Positions 11,082-21,941 of a stretch of DNA of 22,645 nt are shown here, piece after piece (the first letter of the stretch is position 1; the number at the start of each line of letters is the position of its first letter). Origin of the DNA: a virus; the IMG/VR virus record IMGVR_UViG_3300012685_000013, positions 1 to 22,645 of that record. One strand, written 5' to 3'. The translations under genes were made by a program, and so were the position numbers. The notes beneath the pieces were generated by a model. That model was not told the origin of the DNA, did not search any database, and worked only from the letters and a program-made list of their open reading frames with translations.

Positions 11082-11098
11082 ATAGCGCCGGGCGCTAT
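11082..11098. repeat. 8-bp inverted repeat at the major capsid stop codon
   Basis: ATAGCGCC, one G, then GGCGCTAT: arms 11082-11089 and 11091-11098 around base 11090. On the minus strand the TAG stop of the major capsid gene (11097-11095) lies inside the arm. In RNA the loop would open to at least three bases. No U-tract follows on the minus strand (ATAGAAAGG), which argues against a terminator and for a 3' stabilising or processing structure. Confidence 0.6.
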
Positions 11099-11979
11099 TG
11101 AGTTTCGTCGATGTCGATAGACACCACGCCCGCGTCGTCGATTCGCGTGCCGCCGGCCGAGAGCTTGATAACGCACTGCTTGTTGTTCCACTTGTGCGGC
11201 GCGTCTGAAACAGTGACGTCTTGCTCAGTCACTGCGGCGATGGCACCGCCCACGGCGTTCTTCTGCCAGGCGATGCACGTCCTGATGTTGCCCGTCTTCG
11301 GGAGGCGCGTCGACATCCGCCACCGGAAGCCCATCCAAGACTGATCCATGGCGAAGCCTCCTCTGCTCAACGCTTGAATTGTTGAGAAGTCAGAGGAAGT
11401 GACCACAGTGTTGTTGAGAAGGTTGGTCATCGCGTGTGCAGAGTAGAAGAAGTATCTGTCGTCCGGGTCGACGTCCTGACCGTTCATGATCTCGGCCGTT
11501 GAAAGAATCTTGGCGAGAGTCAGGCCCGTACCACCGTTCGCGATCGTCTGGCCGCCCGGGAGCGCGACCGTTGACGTGGACTCACCGGCCTCATCGACCG
11601 AGGTAGCAGCGCCGATAGAAGCCGCAAGGATGATGTCGTCCAGCGCCCTGTTTCTTGCGTTGGTCAGATTTGCGGCGTGCTCGCTGTCGAGATTGACGAT
11701 GGTTTTGAGCTGATCGAGCTCATCGATAAGGACAGCTGCGCCTTGGTCTGCGAGCTGTGCGCGACGCTTCGAGGAGGCAGGATTGATGTACGTGGTGTCC
11801 GCGTCACGTGCGAGCGGGGACATCACAGCAGGGCCGATGCGGTTGAATGGGTATGTCTTGCCGACCACGCCCATCTTCACCCGGTACGAGCCCTGTGTCT
11901 TCTGGATCTTCTGCTGGGCCAGTTGAACGAGGGTATCGTTCAGCTGATGGATGAACCAGGCTTCGTTGAAGAATGCCAT
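11095..11979 (-). CDS. Major capsid protein (294 aa)
   Basis: A 294-residue protein with the layout of short HK97-fold podophage capsid proteins. It has an N-terminal helix (NEAWFIHQLNDTLVQLAQQK), a Gly/Val beta segment, RAQLADQGAAVLIDELDQLK (73-92), the loop GGQTIANGGTGLTLAKI (142-158), then DVDPDDRYFFYSAHAM, a Trp-rich beta segment (MDQSWMGFRWRMSTRLP), and IAWQKNAVGGAIA before a beta C-terminus. It builds the head shell on the scaffold. The ATG has GGAGAA upstream. It is set off by 157 non-coding bases on the 5' side and a hairpin at the stop, as expected for the most highly expressed virion gene. Confidence 0.9.
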   Translation of the reverse strand: MAFFNEAWFIHQLNDTLVQLAQQKIQKTQGSYRVKMGVVGKTYPFNRIGPAVMSPLARDADTTYINPASSKRRAQLADQGAAVLIDELDQLKTIVNLDSEHAANLTNARNRALDDIILAASIGAATSVDEAGESTSTVALPGGQTIANGGTGLTLAKILSTAEIMNGQDVDPDDRYFFYSAHAMTNLLNNTVVTSSDFSTIQALSRGGFAMDQSWMGFRWRMSTRLPKTGNIRTCIAWQKNAVGGAIAAVTEQDVTVSDAPHKWNNKQCVIKLSAGGTRIDDAGVVSIDIDETQ

Positions 11980-12136: not shown

Positions 12137-12373
12137 CTAGACTTTGATTCCTTTCATCACATGCACCGCATGGCCGTCGGCGGTCACTAGAGGTGCAGGG
12201 TCTTCGATCTTTGTTTCGTTCTCGGCAACGTACTTGACGACCTGTTCCAACTGAGGCGATCCTTGAAGCAAATTGAGAATGCCAAGGACCCACGCCTCGG
12301 TTGGAGCGTCGATGCGTGTTCCGTTATCGAGGTCCAGCATGATTCGCCCTGTGATTACTTTGGGCTTTGGCAT
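12137..12373 (-). CDS. Small protein, second of a tandem paralogous pair (78 aa)
   Basis: A 78-residue protein that starts on the stop of the preceding gene (TGATG). Residues 10-35 (IMLDLDNGTRIDAPTEAWVL) match the neighbour's AIKLRNGHKIVAPAEVWVWA in spacing and key residues (NG, I, AP, E, WV), and the later QLEQVVKYV matches QAQKVVDKI. The pair looks like a duplication followed by divergence. A short beta strand then a helix is likely. The function is unknown. It is the last gene before the capsid leader. Confidence 0.7.
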   Translation of the reverse strand: MPKPKVITGRIMLDLDNGTRIDAPTEAWVLGILNLLQGSPQLEQVVKYVAENETKIEDPAPLVTADGHAVHVMKGIKV

Positions 12374-14571: not shown

Positions 14572-16260
14572 TCATGCGGCCCCGGCAAAGGCATTGTCCA
14601 TCCGACCTGCGGTTTTAGGCATTGACTTCAATGCCGGTCCTGCCTTGCCCATACCCTCGGCGACTTGACCCATTTGGGTCAATGCGGCGTTCTTGGCAGT
14701 CTCAGAGGCACGCTTTGCTCTGATCTCATCACGCACTTTGTCTGATCGAACAATATTTGCTGGGAGGCCCGTCAGCATTGCGATCTCGTGGGCCTCCTCG
14801 TCCGCATCAAAGTTGTCGACGGCGTTGGAATTCCCAAGTTGACTCTGAGTCAGAAGCCAATCATTCTTGCGTTGAATTGCTACGAGGTCAGCCGAGCGCT
14901 GCGCTCGGGCTAGAGGCCCTTCAAAAGTAACATCAATATCAGCTCCAACATATTGAAGAAGGACAGGAGGCGGAGGCGGCAACGCACCCGCGCGCTGCAT
15001 GATGTTGAAGCCCCTGTCTATGACAGTTGCCAGAAGTTCGATCTGAACTCGTCCCATCGTGGGACCAATCATACGCTGCATAATCTCTTGACGCCCGGCA
15101 AACTCTGTCGCGGACATACGATCGGACATAGGCATGTCAAGATGATCGTTGAAAAATGCCTGCCTTATTTTTTGTTCGAGCCTCTCAAGGCGATCCTTGG
15201 CCCACGTGAAGTTGGAAGCAGACTCGAGAGGTGCAATAACGTTGCGGACATTACCTCCCGCGAGTGAAGGATCAACATAGTTAATACCGGCGGGGTTGAG
15301 TGTTGTGTCTCCCATGATCCCTTCATACATCTGAAGGAGCGGAGGATCCACGGCTTTTGAGCCAGCTTCAAGCTCAAGTTCAACGAGGCGATTCTGGCTA
15401 CGTACGTCAGGATAGGCCTGATGTCCGGGACCGCGGCCGTACGTTTCACCGGGCGCTTTCGTCCACCTGGCAACCGAGTACGGGAACTCAGGGAAGCCTC
15501 CTTCTGCAACTATGTGATTGCTACGTTGAAGTAAGTAACAGGATGCGAAAGGCATGTTTGCCTGGTTCTGCAAACGCCGGTCGTAGCGATCACGTGGATA
15601 TGTCGCGTGGAGAATTTTGCACAAATCATATTTGTTGTCAGTGTAATGATTCAAGGCATCGGTGCCAATGGCCTGAGGCCCAAACTGACGAAACAGTGCA
15701 TCATACGTAAGCTCAAACTCGCGATAAAGAGTGTTTACACGTCCGAACTGATCTTCAGAGATCCAAAACTCTCCAAAATCGAGTGCACGGAACCGGAATC
15801 CACCGAAGAAAGCACGACTTCTGATCTGAGCCTCTTCCATGAGAATGGCTGCTGTTCCAATGTAGACAAGATCGAGATAAACCTCGGCCATTTCAGCTTG
15901 GAAGTTAGAAGGTTGGTTGTTAAACGCAGCATACAGTCGATCGGCACATTCCTCAAGCCACTCGATGACTTCTTGCAACTTTCGCAGTTGAGTATCGCGA
16001 GGGACAAGCCCGAACCACTTCGCAGCTGCCGATGACATGGTGCCAGCCATTGTGGCAGCGAGCTTTTGTCCGGCGTTTTCCCCGGCACTGTCGAACTGTT
16101 TATCTGTTTGCTTGGTTCCATCTGGCCTTCGGCCTTGGATTCTATTTGTTTTCCTTGGACAGAGGTAGTCCAACATCTGCGAAACAGTGCTGTCCCAATT
16201 GGCCTTGTTGGCTTTGAGGCGCATCCAATTCGCTTTGATTTCTTCGGCGCTGGCGGCCAT
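14572..16260 (-). CDS. Portal protein (head-tail connector, T7 gp8-like), 562 aa
   Basis: Normal length for the podophage head-tail connector family. Characteristic runs are LKANKANWDSTVSQMLDYLC (15-34), the DSAGENAGQKLAATMAGTM block (57-75), WFGL, the 'VYLDLVYIGTAAILMEE' segment, an FPYSVARWTKAPGETYGRGP motif (about 257-276) that names this family well, and the C-terminal wing helices with MSATEFAGRQEIMQRMIGP. The protein forms the ring through which DNA enters and leaves and binds terminase and adaptor. It begins 2 bases after the pre-portal gene's TAG. Confidence 0.93.
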   Translation of the reverse strand: MAASAEEIKANWMRLKANKANWDSTVSQMLDYLCPRKTNRIQGRRPDGTKQTDKQFDSAGENAGQKLAATMAGTMSSAAAKWFGLVPRDTQLRKLQEVIEWLEECADRLYAAFNNQPSNFQAEMAEVYLDLVYIGTAAILMEEAQIRSRAFFGGFRFRALDFGEFWISEDQFGRVNTLYREFELTYDALFRQFGPQAIGTDALNHYTDNKYDLCKILHATYPRDRYDRRLQNQANMPFASCYLLQRSNHIVAEGGFPEFPYSVARWTKAPGETYGRGPGHQAYPDVRSQNRLVELELEAGSKAVDPPLLQMYEGIMGDTTLNPAGINYVDPSLAGGNVRNVIAPLESASNFTWAKDRLERLEQKIRQAFFNDHLDMPMSDRMSATEFAGRQEIMQRMIGPTMGRVQIELLATVIDRGFNIMQRAGALPPPPPVLLQYVGADIDVTFEGPLARAQRSADLVAIQRKNDWLLTQSQLGNSNAVDNFDADEEAHEIAMLTGLPANIVRSDKVRDEIRAKRASETAKNAALTQMGQVAEGMGKAGPALKSMPKTAGRMDNAFAGAA

Positions 16261-17429: not shown

Positions 17430-17757
17430 TTTTCACAATCTCCTTTGGCTGGAAGATTGGCAGAGCTAGACGCTCTGCTTCGCCGATTACCACGATGCTC
17501 TTCCCCACATGCTCGTCGCTTACCTTAAAAACGGTGCGGCAGGTGGGGCACTGGGTCTCTTTTGATATGAAGGTGTTGATGGGGACTTCTTGTCCGACAA
17601 CTGGCCAGAAGTGTGGAGAATGTTCGACGATCGTAAAAGGTTTCCCAATACACCAGTGTAGATTACCACCATGACCAGGAGGCAGATTACAATGACAATC
17701 AGCCCGACCTTCAGTGGGAGATGGGTCAAAACAGAGATCACCAGCCTCCCTAGCCAT
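17419..17757 (-). CDS. Cys/His-rich putative zinc-binding protein (112 aa)
   Basis: ATG 17757 lies 8 bp inside the terminase end, with AAGGA 9 bases upstream. A longer frame from 17898 would lie within the terminase and is not used. Cys at 9, 21, 23 and 36 plus His22 and His34 form one cluster (CHC ... LHWC). C70 and C73 (CPTC) start a second, zinc-ribbon-like one. The C-terminus is beta/basic (IFQPKEIVKNGP). I recognise no family beyond 'CHC-LPPGH' orphan phage proteins. Overlaps on both sides tie it to packaging genes. Confidence 0.65.
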   Translation of the reverse strand: MAREAGDLCFDPSPTEGRADCHCNLPPGHGGNLHWCIGKPFTIVEHSPHFWPVVGQEVPINTFISKETQCPTCRTVFKVSDEHVGKSIVVIGEAERLALPIFQPKEIVKNGP

Positions 17758-19171
17758 TGTATGCCGTCCTTGAAGAAGCATAACGTTGACCAGGTATTTG
17801 GCCTCTGCCAAATGGATCATGGTCAGTGCGCGCTTCGCGCTGGGTGTTGTTTGTTGCGAACTGCGCCGAGCGCGGTTCACGAATACCGACACAAGCATAA
17901 CGGAACATATCGGCGAAGTGTGATGTCTCGTCCGCTTTGGGCGCTCCGTTCTCTTCGTGATACAATTTTAATGCATTTAACATTGGCTGGCAAGTGTGCT
18001 GGTTGAACCACATCCTTGGGAAGAGCCTCTGTGCCACGCTTATGCCGTCGGCTGGACCCAGCTTTTGAACAACGACAATGTCTCGGAAGCCCAGGCCCCG
18101 AAGAGTCTCAACACGAGTTTTGCCTGTTCCGATTTCGTGAGTGCGCGCGTCGTGTGGAACATACACTCGACCGAAAGAGTAATGATTCCCTTCTCGTATT
18201 GCATGTACGTAGGCAGGAATACCGCGTCCCACATCGCTCCAGCAATTGATCCAGCGTATCTCCTGCCCAACAAGCTGGAAAGCTCCAACGGCCATTGTGA
18301 GCTTCTTTGCTCCCAAGTCCCAGGCAAGGTTGACAGGAGAGTTTGGAGCCACTGGTACGAAGCCAATCCGTCCGTCCCGATCAGCTTGGAGGATAAGGTC
18401 CCCATAATAGGAACCTTCAACTGGTGTCTCGAAATCACAGTAGTATTCGCGGCGGACGTGTCGTTTTCCTTTTTCGACGAGGTCTTCGGCGACTTCAGAT
18501 TCTGGGATGACACGGGTGCCATCCTCTCCCTCGGCGTCGCGCCGAGTTTGCTCGACAGTCAGGAGGCGCGAGAACCACGAAGGTGTCGCCTTCGCGTACT
18601 GATATTGATAAAGGGCGTGGTTCCCTTTGCATCTGTTTTCTTTAGGGTCACCCTTAACACAACAGGAGGGGAGGATCTTTGGAGGCGTGTAATTGAACGC
18701 TGCCCAACCACCGTTCTCTGCGAGAACTGGTGAGAGAGTGTCCCAGGCGCCAATGAGCATGTCGCCGAATTCGCTGAAGACAATCCCTACGGGGTTTGGG
18801 CCTCTGAGGCGCGCTATCGCGCGTTCATCATCGGCACCCATCAACTGCCATACAGATCCGTTGATGTACGTGATCTGCATCTCAGTTTCGTTGTACTCGC
18901 TGACGAAATTGGGAGGCCCGATGATGTCTCGAAAACGAATGCCGTCCGTTCCGATGTTGTCCCAGACGTCACGCCTAGCCTGGTTGAGGCTTGGCAAGAT
19001 GTGGAAATACAAACCCTTACGTTTCAACATCTCTTCTGCGGTGAAGGCCAACCACGTACGGTCCTTACCTGAACGACGATGCCAGACCGTGACGAATCTC
19101 TTGCAGCCTTCTTGTCGGGCATCACGTACCTCGCGTTGATACGTGCGGTATGCGTGGAGAACGCCGGGCAT
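17750..19171 (-). CDS. Terminase large subunit (473 aa)
   Basis: The ATPase domain has a Walker A-like HRRSGKD (31-37), a Walker B GIVFSEF (129-135), and an MGADDERAIARLRG loop (111-124). The RNase H-like nuclease domain has WDLGAKK (284-290; Asp285), a middle acidic region, and SHFADMFRYAC (417-427; Asp421). This matches TerL proteins of T7/BPP-1-like phages, which cut concatemeric DNA and drive it through the portal. The length is slightly short but complete. Between NYTPPK (160-165) and GNHALY (183-188), where most relatives have a short GTP-R-RNH coupling motif, about 15 extra residues carry Cys170, 171 and 181. ATG 19171 shares one base with the stop of the 34-residue gene. Confidence 0.93.
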   Translation of the reverse strand: MPGVLHAYRTYQREVRDARQEGCKRFVTVWHRRSGKDRTWLAFTAEEMLKRKGLYFHILPSLNQARRDVWDNIGTDGIRFRDIIGPPNFVSEYNETEMQITYINGSVWQLMGADDERAIARLRGPNPVGIVFSEFGDMLIGAWDTLSPVLAENGGWAAFNYTPPKILPSCCVKGDPKENRCKGNHALYQYQYAKATPSWFSRLLTVEQTRRDAEGEDGTRVIPESEVAEDLVEKGKRHVRREYYCDFETPVEGSYYGDLILQADRDGRIGFVPVAPNSPVNLAWDLGAKKLTMAVGAFQLVGQEIRWINCWSDVGRGIPAYVHAIREGNHYSFGRVYVPHDARTHEIGTGKTRVETLRGLGFRDIVVVQKLGPADGISVAQRLFPRMWFNQHTCQPMLNALKLYHEENGAPKADETSHFADMFRYACVGIREPRSAQFATNNTQREARTDHDPFGRGQIPGQRYASSRTAYNG

Positions 19172-20286: not shown

Positions 20287-20322
20287 TGCCAACTCGACTT
20301 TGGGGACCCGCCCCCCTTGTTA

Positions 20323-20347
20323 TATTTGAATATTTGAATATTCAAAT
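20323..20347. repeat. Direct repeats and 16-bp palindrome, AT-rich
   Basis: TATTTGAA occurs twice in tandem (20323-20330, 20331-20338). The second copy begins the perfect palindrome ATTTGAATATTCAAAT (20332-20347). It lies in the middle of the divergent control region and may be a regulator site or part of an origin. Confidence 0.6.
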
Positions 20348-20370
20348 GTTTGGAGGCGTGCTATATCTTA

Positions 20371-20405
20371 TATAACATGTATAACATGTATAACACGACG
20401 TGTTA
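20371..20405. repeat. Three tandem 9-bp repeats followed by an inverted repeat
   Basis: TATAACATG, TATAACATG, TATAACACG at 20371-20397. The last copy continues into the inverted repeat TAACACG-A-CGTGTTA (20391-20405). Iteron-like, AT-rich, next to the long inverted repeat. Confidence 0.7.
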
Positions 20406-20440
20406 GGTGCGCTTAAGCCGTGGGATTAAGCGCACCTAAC
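20402..20440. repeat. 15-bp perfect inverted repeat with 9-base loop
   Basis: GTTAGGTGCGCTTAA (20402-20416) and its exact complement (20426-20440). There is no T-run on either strand, so it is unlikely to be an intrinsic terminator. A weaker GGCGC/GCGCC hairpin follows at 20462-20476. Confidence 0.85.
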
Positions 20441-20607: not shown

Positions 20608-21141
20608 ATGGCAACGCCCACAACCACAACCACCACAGTTCGCCCCGTCACGGTCCCGAAACCCGACGCCCGGAACGGGAACATCGGTACTTTCGAGACC
20701 ATCGCCAAGTGGAGCATGGGCGAGGGGCAGCCGCAAGGGTCGGCAAAGGGTACGTTTACCGGCCCCGCCGAGCCCTCGGTGCTCGTCGCGTTCTACAACA
20801 CGCTGGACCAGGAGGGCAAAAATCGCTTTTACCGCGACTGGTACTACGGTGCCGACCTCCGGAAAAAGGCCTCGCTGAGGCCCGCCGCGAGCCAGGACTC
20901 CCCGTGGCTCACGCGGGATAACATCCGGTACAACCTGTTCGACGGGCAGCGCATCAACATCAAGACCAATGCCAAGCTCCTGGAACTGCCACTCGCGAAG
21001 CGGATCGCGGCCATCAACACGGGATTCCAGGATGCCGACAATTTCGGCGCCGAGCCAAAGGATGCCTTCGTGGTCGCCAAGAAAATGCTGCTGGAGGCCA
21101 AGTTGGCCACGGAGACCAACGGCCGCCTCGCGATGAAGTAG
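20608..21141 (+). CDS. Isolated GC-rich gene of unknown function (177 aa)
   Basis: The start at 20608 is chosen for its GGAG site; the frame extends back to 20524. The first 25 residues are Thr/Pro/Val-rich (TTTTTTVRPVTVPKP). Then come a helical part with TFETIAKWSMGEG, a Trp/Tyr-rich stretch NTLDQEGKNRFYRDWYYGAD (about 75-95), and a Lys/Ala-rich C-terminal helix. There is no Cys, signal or membrane span. Codon use strongly prefers C/G at third positions, unlike the AT-richer late genes. It lies alone between a promoter candidate and a strong terminator, opposite to the late operon. I do not recognise it. It may be an accessory ('moron'-like) gene or an abundant early protein. Confidence 0.75.
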   Translation: MATPTTTTTTVRPVTVPKPDARNGNIGTFETIAKWSMGEGQPQGSAKGTFTGPAEPSVLVAFYNTLDQEGKNRFYRDWYYGADLRKKASLRPAASQDSPWLTRDNIRYNLFDGQRINIKTNAKLLELPLAKRIAAINTGFQDADNFGAEPKDAFVVAKKMLLEAKLATETNGRLAMK

Positions 21142-21157
21142 CGCTCTCACCAACGGG

Positions 21158-21190
21158 GGGCCGGTGCCTGTATGGGCCGGCCCTTTTTTT
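21158..21190 (+). terminator. Intrinsic terminator of the isolated gene
   Basis: GGGCCGG (21158-21164) pairs with CCGGCCC (21177-21183) around a 12-base loop, followed at once by seven T (21184-21190). It lies 17 bases after the stop codon. Confidence 0.92.
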
Positions 21191-21243
21191 GCCCACCGAT
21201 CCCGGGCGCATAAGTTAGACACTTACCGTGATGGCGTGTGCGC

Positions 21244-21259
21244 GCGCCGACATCGGCGC
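21244..21259. repeat. 7-bp GC-rich inverted repeat
   Basis: GCGCCGA, CA, TCGGCGC. The first of a row of inverted repeats between the terminator and the next promoter. The bases 21191-21243 show nothing recognisable. Confidence 0.6.
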
Positions 21260-21293
21260 TGTCGTCATGTTAAATATGGGGAACTTTGGGGAA

Positions 21294-21377
21294 AAGCATC
21301 TTTGGGGAAAGTCTACCTTTGGTGCGAGTTTACCTTTAAGGTCATATTTTGGCCTTAAAACTTTCCTTAAGATGCTT
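21294..21377. other. Long stem-loop 1 in the structured non-coding region
   Basis: AAGCATCTT (21294-21302) pairs with AAGATGCTT (21369-21377). After a 3/2 interior loop GGAAAGT (21306-21312) pairs with ACTTTCC (21360-21366). Inside, TTTAAGG (21335-21341) pairs with CCTTAAA (21353-21359), next to the small ACC-TTT-GGT (21315-21323). The repeat TTTGGGGAAA flanks the left arm. GGGG-ATT-CCCC follows at 21378-21388. Confidence 0.6.
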
Positions 21378-21422
21378 GGGGATTCCCCATTCCCCAGGTT
21401 TTTGCCCCACTTGTGCCAGACT

Positions 21423-21492
21423 GGCATCGCCTTTCGACGCCGCGAAGCGGCGACAACTTGTAAAGTGTCGCTTTGCTTCGCGAGGCGATGCC
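21423..21492. other. Long stem-loop 2 in the structured non-coding region
   Basis: GGCATCGCCT (21423-21432) pairs with AGGCGATGCC (21483-21492). After an 8-base bulge CGCGAAGC (21441-21448) pairs with GCTTCGCG (21475-21482), then GCGACA (21450-21455) with TGTCGC (21466-21471) and CTT with AAG, about 27 pairs in all. The left half can instead form CGCCGC-GAA-GCGGCG (21438-21452), so two exclusive folds are possible. Confidence 0.65.
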
Positions 21493-21508
21493 TTGTGCCA
21501 GGTCGATG

Positions 21509-21539
21509 CTTGTGTACAAGCTGATGCCTTGTACACAAG
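21509..21539. other. 12-bp perfect stem-loop in the structured region
   Basis: CTTGTGTACAAG (21509-21520), loop CTGATGC, CTTGTACACAAG (21528-21539). The phrase GATGC(C)TTGT recurs three times between 21488 and 21532 at about 17-20 base steps. Confidence 0.85.
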
Positions 21540-21540
21540 A

Positions 21541-21565
21541 GTGGGTTCTACCCCACATTTTGTGG
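21541..21565. other. Two exclusive small hairpins before the promoter
   Basis: GTGGG (21541-21545) pairs with CCCAC (21552-21556), followed by ATTTT, which is terminator-like. Alternatively CCACA (21553-21557) pairs with TGTGG (21561-21565). Sharing of CCCAC makes the two folds alternatives. Confidence 0.5.
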
Positions 21566-21595
21566 TTGCAGGCGCCGGGCGCCCCATGTTATAGT
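21566..21595 (+). promoter_or_regulatory. Plus-strand promoter with extended -10 for the right operon
   Basis: TTGCAG (21566-21571), 18 bp, TATAGT (21590-21595), with TGT before the -10. The spacer contains GGCGCC-G-GGCGCC (21571-21583), a possible operator. An ATG (21606) follows 10 bases after the -10, the same geometry as at the late promoter, in frame with the ribosome-site-led ATG at 21639. Confidence 0.65.
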
Positions 21596-21638
21596 CTGAC
21601 CATAAATGGCCTGGTTGAGGCTAGAAAGAGGTGACGAG

Positions 21639-21941
21639 ATGGAAGCAAAAGGTCGCAAGGCTCAGCAGGTGAGCCCCTCGTGGTTCAATGTTCTAGACCA
21701 TGTTCGCTGTGCTATCGCACAGGCAGAGCGCGACCAGGCATTCTACGTTGCACATCAAAACCTCACAAAGCGTACTGTACGATTCAACGTACAGCAGGAC
21801 AACCCAGGCTTCTGGTATCGTGTTACGCCCCTCAAGGTGTATATCCCTGGGCCAGAAGTCAACGCGTGGGGTTGTAGTTGCCCCAACGCCTCGGTGGACC
21901 TACACTTCACGGATTGCTCCGAAGTCGGGAGGCCACGCTGA
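21639..21941 (+). CDS. Small protein with C-terminal Cys/His cluster (100 aa)
   Basis: ATG 21639 with GAGGTG 6 bases upstream. An in-frame ATG at 21606 close to the expected transcription start would add 11 residues. An N-terminal helix (SWFNVLDHVRCAIAQAERDQ) is followed by a beta part with FNVQQDNPGFWYRVTPLKVY, and the end holds C79, C81, H89 and C93, a possible zinc site. The family is not recognised. The stop overlaps the next ATG by one base (TGATG). Confidence 0.65.
   Translation: MEAKGRKAQQVSPSWFNVLDHVRCAIAQAERDQAFYVAHQNLTKRTVRFNVQQDNPGFWYRVTPLKVYIPGPEVNAWGCSCPNASVDLHFTDCSEVGRPR

Follow-up and report, generated by a model that had tools for sequence, protein, structure and literature searches.

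Introduction

Iteron-type replication origins, such as those of lambda-like phages and plasmids, combine short direct repeats with inverted repeats and a stretch of lower GC content. The gene-free phage locus described here, known from its sequence alone, shares with them direct repeats of 17–18 bp, inverted repeats and a lower-GC stretch, and replication genes lie near it in the relatives. It differs from such origins in that the standard DnaA box (TTWTNCACA) is absent from the gene-free DNA, in that Pfam and PHROG identified no initiator gene among the neighbouring genes (replication genes were seen only in the relatives), in having about three units per array and in the size of its inverted repeats, which is far larger. 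A pair of TTGTACACA words at 21511/21529 was considered as DnaA boxes and rejected, being present in this phage only, with no counterpart in the gene-free DNA of the relatives.

GOLLD, ROOL and OLE are large ornate phage and bacterial RNAs (PMC12286853). The locus resembles them in that phage DNA free of genes over several hundred nucleotides is predicted to form a large structure, but unlike them it has no Rfam match and no consistent strand preference, and the collections searched yielded no homologue in which conservation or covariation could be read. The likeness of the phage to HTVC010P-type podophages (Pelagibacter phages such as Baldr and HTVC010P) consists of homologous portal and capsid (32–38% identity) and tail-tube genes; unlike this phage, the HTVC010P-type records and loci searched yielded no homologue of its gene at 20611, and no sampled segment of these or other distant loci was as structured as the region (next z -4.4 vs. 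-6.2). Since no standard DnaA boxes and no Rfam match were found, the region is not assigned to any known family.

Results

The record IMGVR_UViG_3300012685_000013 is a 22,645-bp fragment of a viral genome, referred to below, at its full length, as the window. A podophage virion module occupies its minus strand, with the terminase (17750–19171), portal (14572–16260), capsid (11095–11979) and tail tube genes, while on the right side the plus strand carries the gene of a 176-aa protein (20611–21141) followed by more small genes without family matches; Pfam and PHROG gave zero matches for the window genes neighbouring the gene-free region. The source is an undescribed tailed phage, and the gene-free region separates two of its early genes. 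Cumulative GC skew drops along the left-strand genes and is flat near 21–22 kb, a shape that the opposite gene strands alone would give. Another strongly foldable 100-nt stretch (12226–12325, z -6.7) lies upstream of the capsid gene.

The preliminary description had placed the structured DNA between a strong terminator and a promoter and had seen no convincing gene up to 21606. The terminator was borne out: a GC stem followed by T7 at 21155–21190 on the plus strand (-22.1 kcal/mol) forms an intrinsic terminator of the upstream gene. The promoter needs correction: the plus-strand site read from the sequence at 21566–21595 (TTGCAG-18-TATAGT, with GGCGCCGGGCGCC in the spacer) has only 8 of 12 consensus bases, under the 9-of-12 threshold of the scan, and no clear promoter was detected within the region. 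A short weak plus-strand hairpin, GTGGG-6-CCCAC followed by ATTTTGTGG (21541–21556), appeared terminator-like by scan, with a fold z of just -1.6. No coding signal was found, in line with the earlier claim: all six open reading frames of at least 63 aa in the region have codon log-odds below 0, against 0.10 to 0.23 for the training genes, so that its codon usage is unlike that of the other phage genes and the region does not qualify as a protein-coding gene. The right border, however, moves, because the next gene probably starts not at 21606 but at the ATG at 21639, behind AGAGGTG. The gene-free stretch is therefore 21142–21638, about 500 non-coding bases packed with mirror-image and tandem repeats. 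The next early gene (21639–21941, plus strand) has a homologue in the relative L227 (tblastn, 48% over 33 aa, E 7.6e-6).

Situated after a strong terminator and ahead of the next early gene, the region could suit a boundary or leader acting at the RNA level, in which the stems insulate two early operons, serve as RNase III sites or take part in anti-termination in read-through transcripts, and stems of 20 bp are within the size that RNase III cuts. The region nevertheless lies behind the strong terminator, a structure of about 280 bp is far beyond what a boundary needs, and no other stretch of the window approaches it in structure; we regard a boundary or leader as highly improbable.

The chain of large stem-loops that had been described in 21191–21565 is real, and its stems are located where they had been claimed. 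Compared with shuffled sequences, this interval folds with z values of -8.7 as plus-strand RNA and -9.2 as minus-strand RNA, and of -11.3 and -9.9 with DNA parameters, under which the structure of the whole interval is strongest; in each of these tests none of 100 shuffles was as stable. It is the most foldable of 3,435 segments of 375 nt from this phage and its distant relatives, at 6.2 sd below expectation, against 4.4 for the next segment outside the interval. While the stems thus exceed chance, the first 80 nt of the 375 bp (21191–21270) are ordinary (z -1.1).

The hairpin previously delimited as 21294–21377 is present, and its extent is revised: it forms the core of a longer rod-like inverted repeat of 130 nt and 50 pairs at 21272–21401 (fold of 21268–21402, -56.9 kcal/mol), in which TGGGGAA (three copies) stands opposite TTCCCCA (two copies), AAGCATCTT pairs with AAGATGCTT, and an inner hairpin is formed by TTTAAGG/CCTTAAA. 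The second extended hairpin, GGCATCGCC...GGCGATGCC at 21423–21492, has 28 pairs (-42.1 kcal/mol, z -6.7) and, as had been stated, a competing inner hairpin (GCCGC-GAA-GCGGC). The perfect 12-bp stem, CTTGTGTACAAG-7-CTTGTACACAAG at 21509–21539 (-16.3 kcal/mol), was likewise recovered, both of its arms being nearly palindromic themselves. None of these inverted repeats is assigned to a strand.

Two tandem arrays, likewise without strand, are a new feature that the earlier account had not contained. The first, at 21284–21337, repeats CTTTGGGGAAAGTCTAC (17 bp × 3.2, TRF score 52, reached by 1 of 1000 shuffles); the second, iteron-like, at 21486–21539, repeats a unit of about CGATGCCTTGTGCACAAGC (18 bp × 2.9, TRF score 59, reached by none of 1000), and no shuffle out of 1000 gave two arrays each scoring at least 50. 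The GATGC(C)TTGT phrase, whose recurrence had been noticed before, proves to be the unit of the 18-bp array, with copies at 21487, 21505 and 21523, exactly 18 bp apart. The word CTTTGGGGA of the first array has three copies in the window (20298, 21284 and 21300), all of them in two gene-free regions, although the words common to both regions are only modestly above chance.

The other of these regions, 20287–20440, is structured as well, lies in the divergent intergenic DNA and has no assigned strand. It contains a counterpart of a conserved TGCCAA element at 20287, CTTTGGGGA at 20298 and a 15-bp perfect inverted repeat at 20402–20440. Within 20324–20440 we also observed a palindrome (ATTTGAATATT/AATATTCAAAT) and a 9-bp tandem repeat of TATAACATG (× 2.8), with a 100-nt z of -7.1. 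The conserved gene-free element, about GCAAWTYYCATGCCAAGTC and mostly followed by an A run and CCCC, occurs in the clade's divergent intergenic DNA (from L230 6411, L233 179, L234 8618, L270 8759, L227 6665 and L241 3738), its diverged counterpart in the window being CGTGCCAACTCGAC; it is possibly a regulatory or packaging site.

Relatives of the phage were found by aligning the window terminase together with its best distant match. The nearest is L227 (57% identity in the terminase, 56% in portal and capsid), followed by a series at about 40–45%. Single-protein scans of IMG/VR (the 20611 protein and the portal, and the terminase for close relatives) gave nothing near, portal and capsid alignments only relatives with identities up to about 39%, and portal alignment against GTDB genomes only matches of 28–38%. 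As a marker of the clade we used the 20611 gene, which an iterated HMM finds in six lineages (the window, L270, L228–L231, which are one phage, L234, L241 and L227), divergent from the terminase side in every one. Its protein, modelled by AF2 with the six-sequence alignment, reached a pLDDT of 80, and a fold search with this model gave no match at E ≤ 0.001; the single-sequence fold was poor (pLDDT 42).

In all six lineages with this gene the most structured 300-nt segment of the contig falls in early DNA without genes, to which about 1% of the segments belong. When 6,648 such segments, drawn from the window and from 80 relatives, are ranked by structure, the first four are L230 4301, L270 7501, window 21201 and L241 3401. 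Gene-free early segments are more structured than all others with a Mann-Whitney p of 5e-15 when the gene-free intervals are set by hand, as was done after part of the data had been seen; under automatic masking, which because of spurious open reading frames miscalls the strongest stretches of the window and of L270 as coding, the gene-free segments of the clade are more structured than those of other phages with p 4e-4. Since the automatic masking errs in this way, both versions are given.

The structured region immediately follows the marker gene both in the window and in L270; in the latter, a terminator after the 20611 homologue is followed by about 500 gene-free nucleotides with 60-nt arms that are 75% complementary (z -5.7). 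In L230 it is a 270-nt giant hairpin (z -7.5), three small genes further from the homologue, and in L241, L227 and L234 it is found on the opposite side of the marker gene. Some relatives have repeated motifs of their own there: the palindrome core GACACTGTCA occurs four times in the region of L241, and GTACACTCAC three times in that of L230, which also has repeat copies 142–143 bp apart and a poly-A tract. An operator-like 11-bp motif, TGACAGTGTCA, was noted in four copies in the gene-free DNA of L241 (2860–3300) and in at least two in L227 (5600–5760), and a long GA dinucleotide tract in L234 (6760–6836), within the gene-free DNA that follows the 20611 homologue and the gene next to it. In the L230 phage two contigs are interrupted within the giant palindrome, beside the poly-A tract (G001 (L231) at its ends, L228 at its start); there the 42,117-bp contig can be rejoined end to end almost completely, which suggests that this contig is a complete genome.

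No sequence similarity was found between the window region and those of the relatives. A search with the hairpin DNA pattern gave zero matches and blastn against phages and plasmids only short chance matches; the collections searched yielded no sequence homologous to the region. The regions of the relatives are unrelated and unalignable, which makes a covariation test impossible, and the copies of the L230 phage are of no use for it because they are 99–100% identical.

Discussion

Such unrelated sequences might be expected of repeats left by insertion or mutation, for example by MITE-like elements or template switching at palindromes, in tolerant gene-free DNA with no specific function; the spacing of the L230 repeat copies, the poly-A tract and the breaking there of two contigs, as repeat-rich DNA would cause in assembly, agree with this origin. 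On the other hand, the same neighbourhood is affected in six lineages, the structure is stronger than in the gene-free DNA of other phages, and a phage with a compact genome should tend to shed useless DNA. Functionless repeats are, in our estimate, unlikely.

A trans-acting, structured phage non-coding RNA of about 275–400 nt, read on the plus strand after the terminator and ahead of the following gene (e.g., a decoy or an RNA scaffold), would account for the very stable fold, and the folds of L270 (500 nt, multibranched, with a long closing stem) and L230 (one giant hairpin) are reminiscent, in their general outline, of the large ornate RNAs. The sense strand of the window is richer in G-U pairs (8/107 vs. 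2/100) and has the stronger z, as in L241, but the preference is reversed in L270 and L230 and is hence inconsistent. Of the native pairs, 92–99% are Watson-Crick in each of the four phages tested, and G-U pairs are fewer than in shuffled folds. This pattern leans to symmetry at the DNA level, though it is no proof of a DNA role, because a scarcity of G-U pairs is also possible in stable RNAs, and inverted repeats of recent origin pair perfectly whatever their use. Neither the window nor seven loci of the relatives gave a match at gathering score to any family of Rfam 15, GOLLD, ROOL and OLE included, and relaxing the threshold brought up nothing but chance matches below gathering score, such as miRNA models. 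With no clear promoter inside the region and no covariation support from relatives that lack sequence homology, such an RNA appears somewhat unlikely. Its wider form, a large structured RNA kept throughout the clade near the replication module, in which the architecture persists while the sequence is wholly replaced and each lineage has an unrelated giant fold, is quite improbable; if true, it would represent a class invisible to covariation methods and to sequence-based family searches. For a packaging element or, specifically, a decoy RNA, both proposed earlier, no positive support emerged.

We tentatively favour, at a little under even chances, a control region of the early genes acting at the DNA level, most likely a putative iteron-type replication origin or an operator array. 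The earlier suggestion of an origin, here widened to include a control region for the replication genes, gains support from the arrays, the inverted repeats, the lower-GC patch (43–44% at 21250–21400 vs. 53.7% overall), the recurrence in relatives and the operon found in two of them. Tandem direct repeats of the size of about 17–22 bp looked for in an iteron origin are present (17 bp × 3.2 and 18 bp × 2.9). In the two best-mapped relatives (L230/G001 and L270/G005) the region is followed downstream by a replication operon with an SNF2 helicase, a PD-(D/E)XK nuclease, an N6/N4 methylase with ParB_N and a UDG-DNA polymerase A, joined in G001 by downstream genes of an AAA protein and a DUF3987 protein. 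From these relatives we infer replication genes to the right of the region in this phage too, where the contig ends at 22645. Against an origin are the shifts of its exact position among lineages and the mere three or so units of the arrays; a literature search on similar podophage origins found nothing direct. DNA polymerase A fused to uracil-DNA glycosylase was also seen in L322 (10234–12843) and L323 (11328–14482), the polymerase domain being split over two open reading frames in the former, while in the latter the first frame likewise ends once the N-terminal part has been encoded; Rfam matched no intron at these split polymerases.

If the region is an origin or an operator array of this kind, the 17- and 18-bp units as well as the palindromes may serve as sites for a DNA-binding protein of the phage, the stretch of lower GC content (43% vs. 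54%) may open or be extruded as cruciforms, and rightward replication or early transcription would begin there. Fast turnover of the site together with its reader would fit the absent sequence conservation, and the occurrence of equally folded but different sequences nearby in the relatives suggests a fast-evolving origin or control region. The region would offer a concrete candidate origin for this phage group, and the case indicates that structure density combined with synteny can reveal functional non-coding DNA that is missed by alignment.
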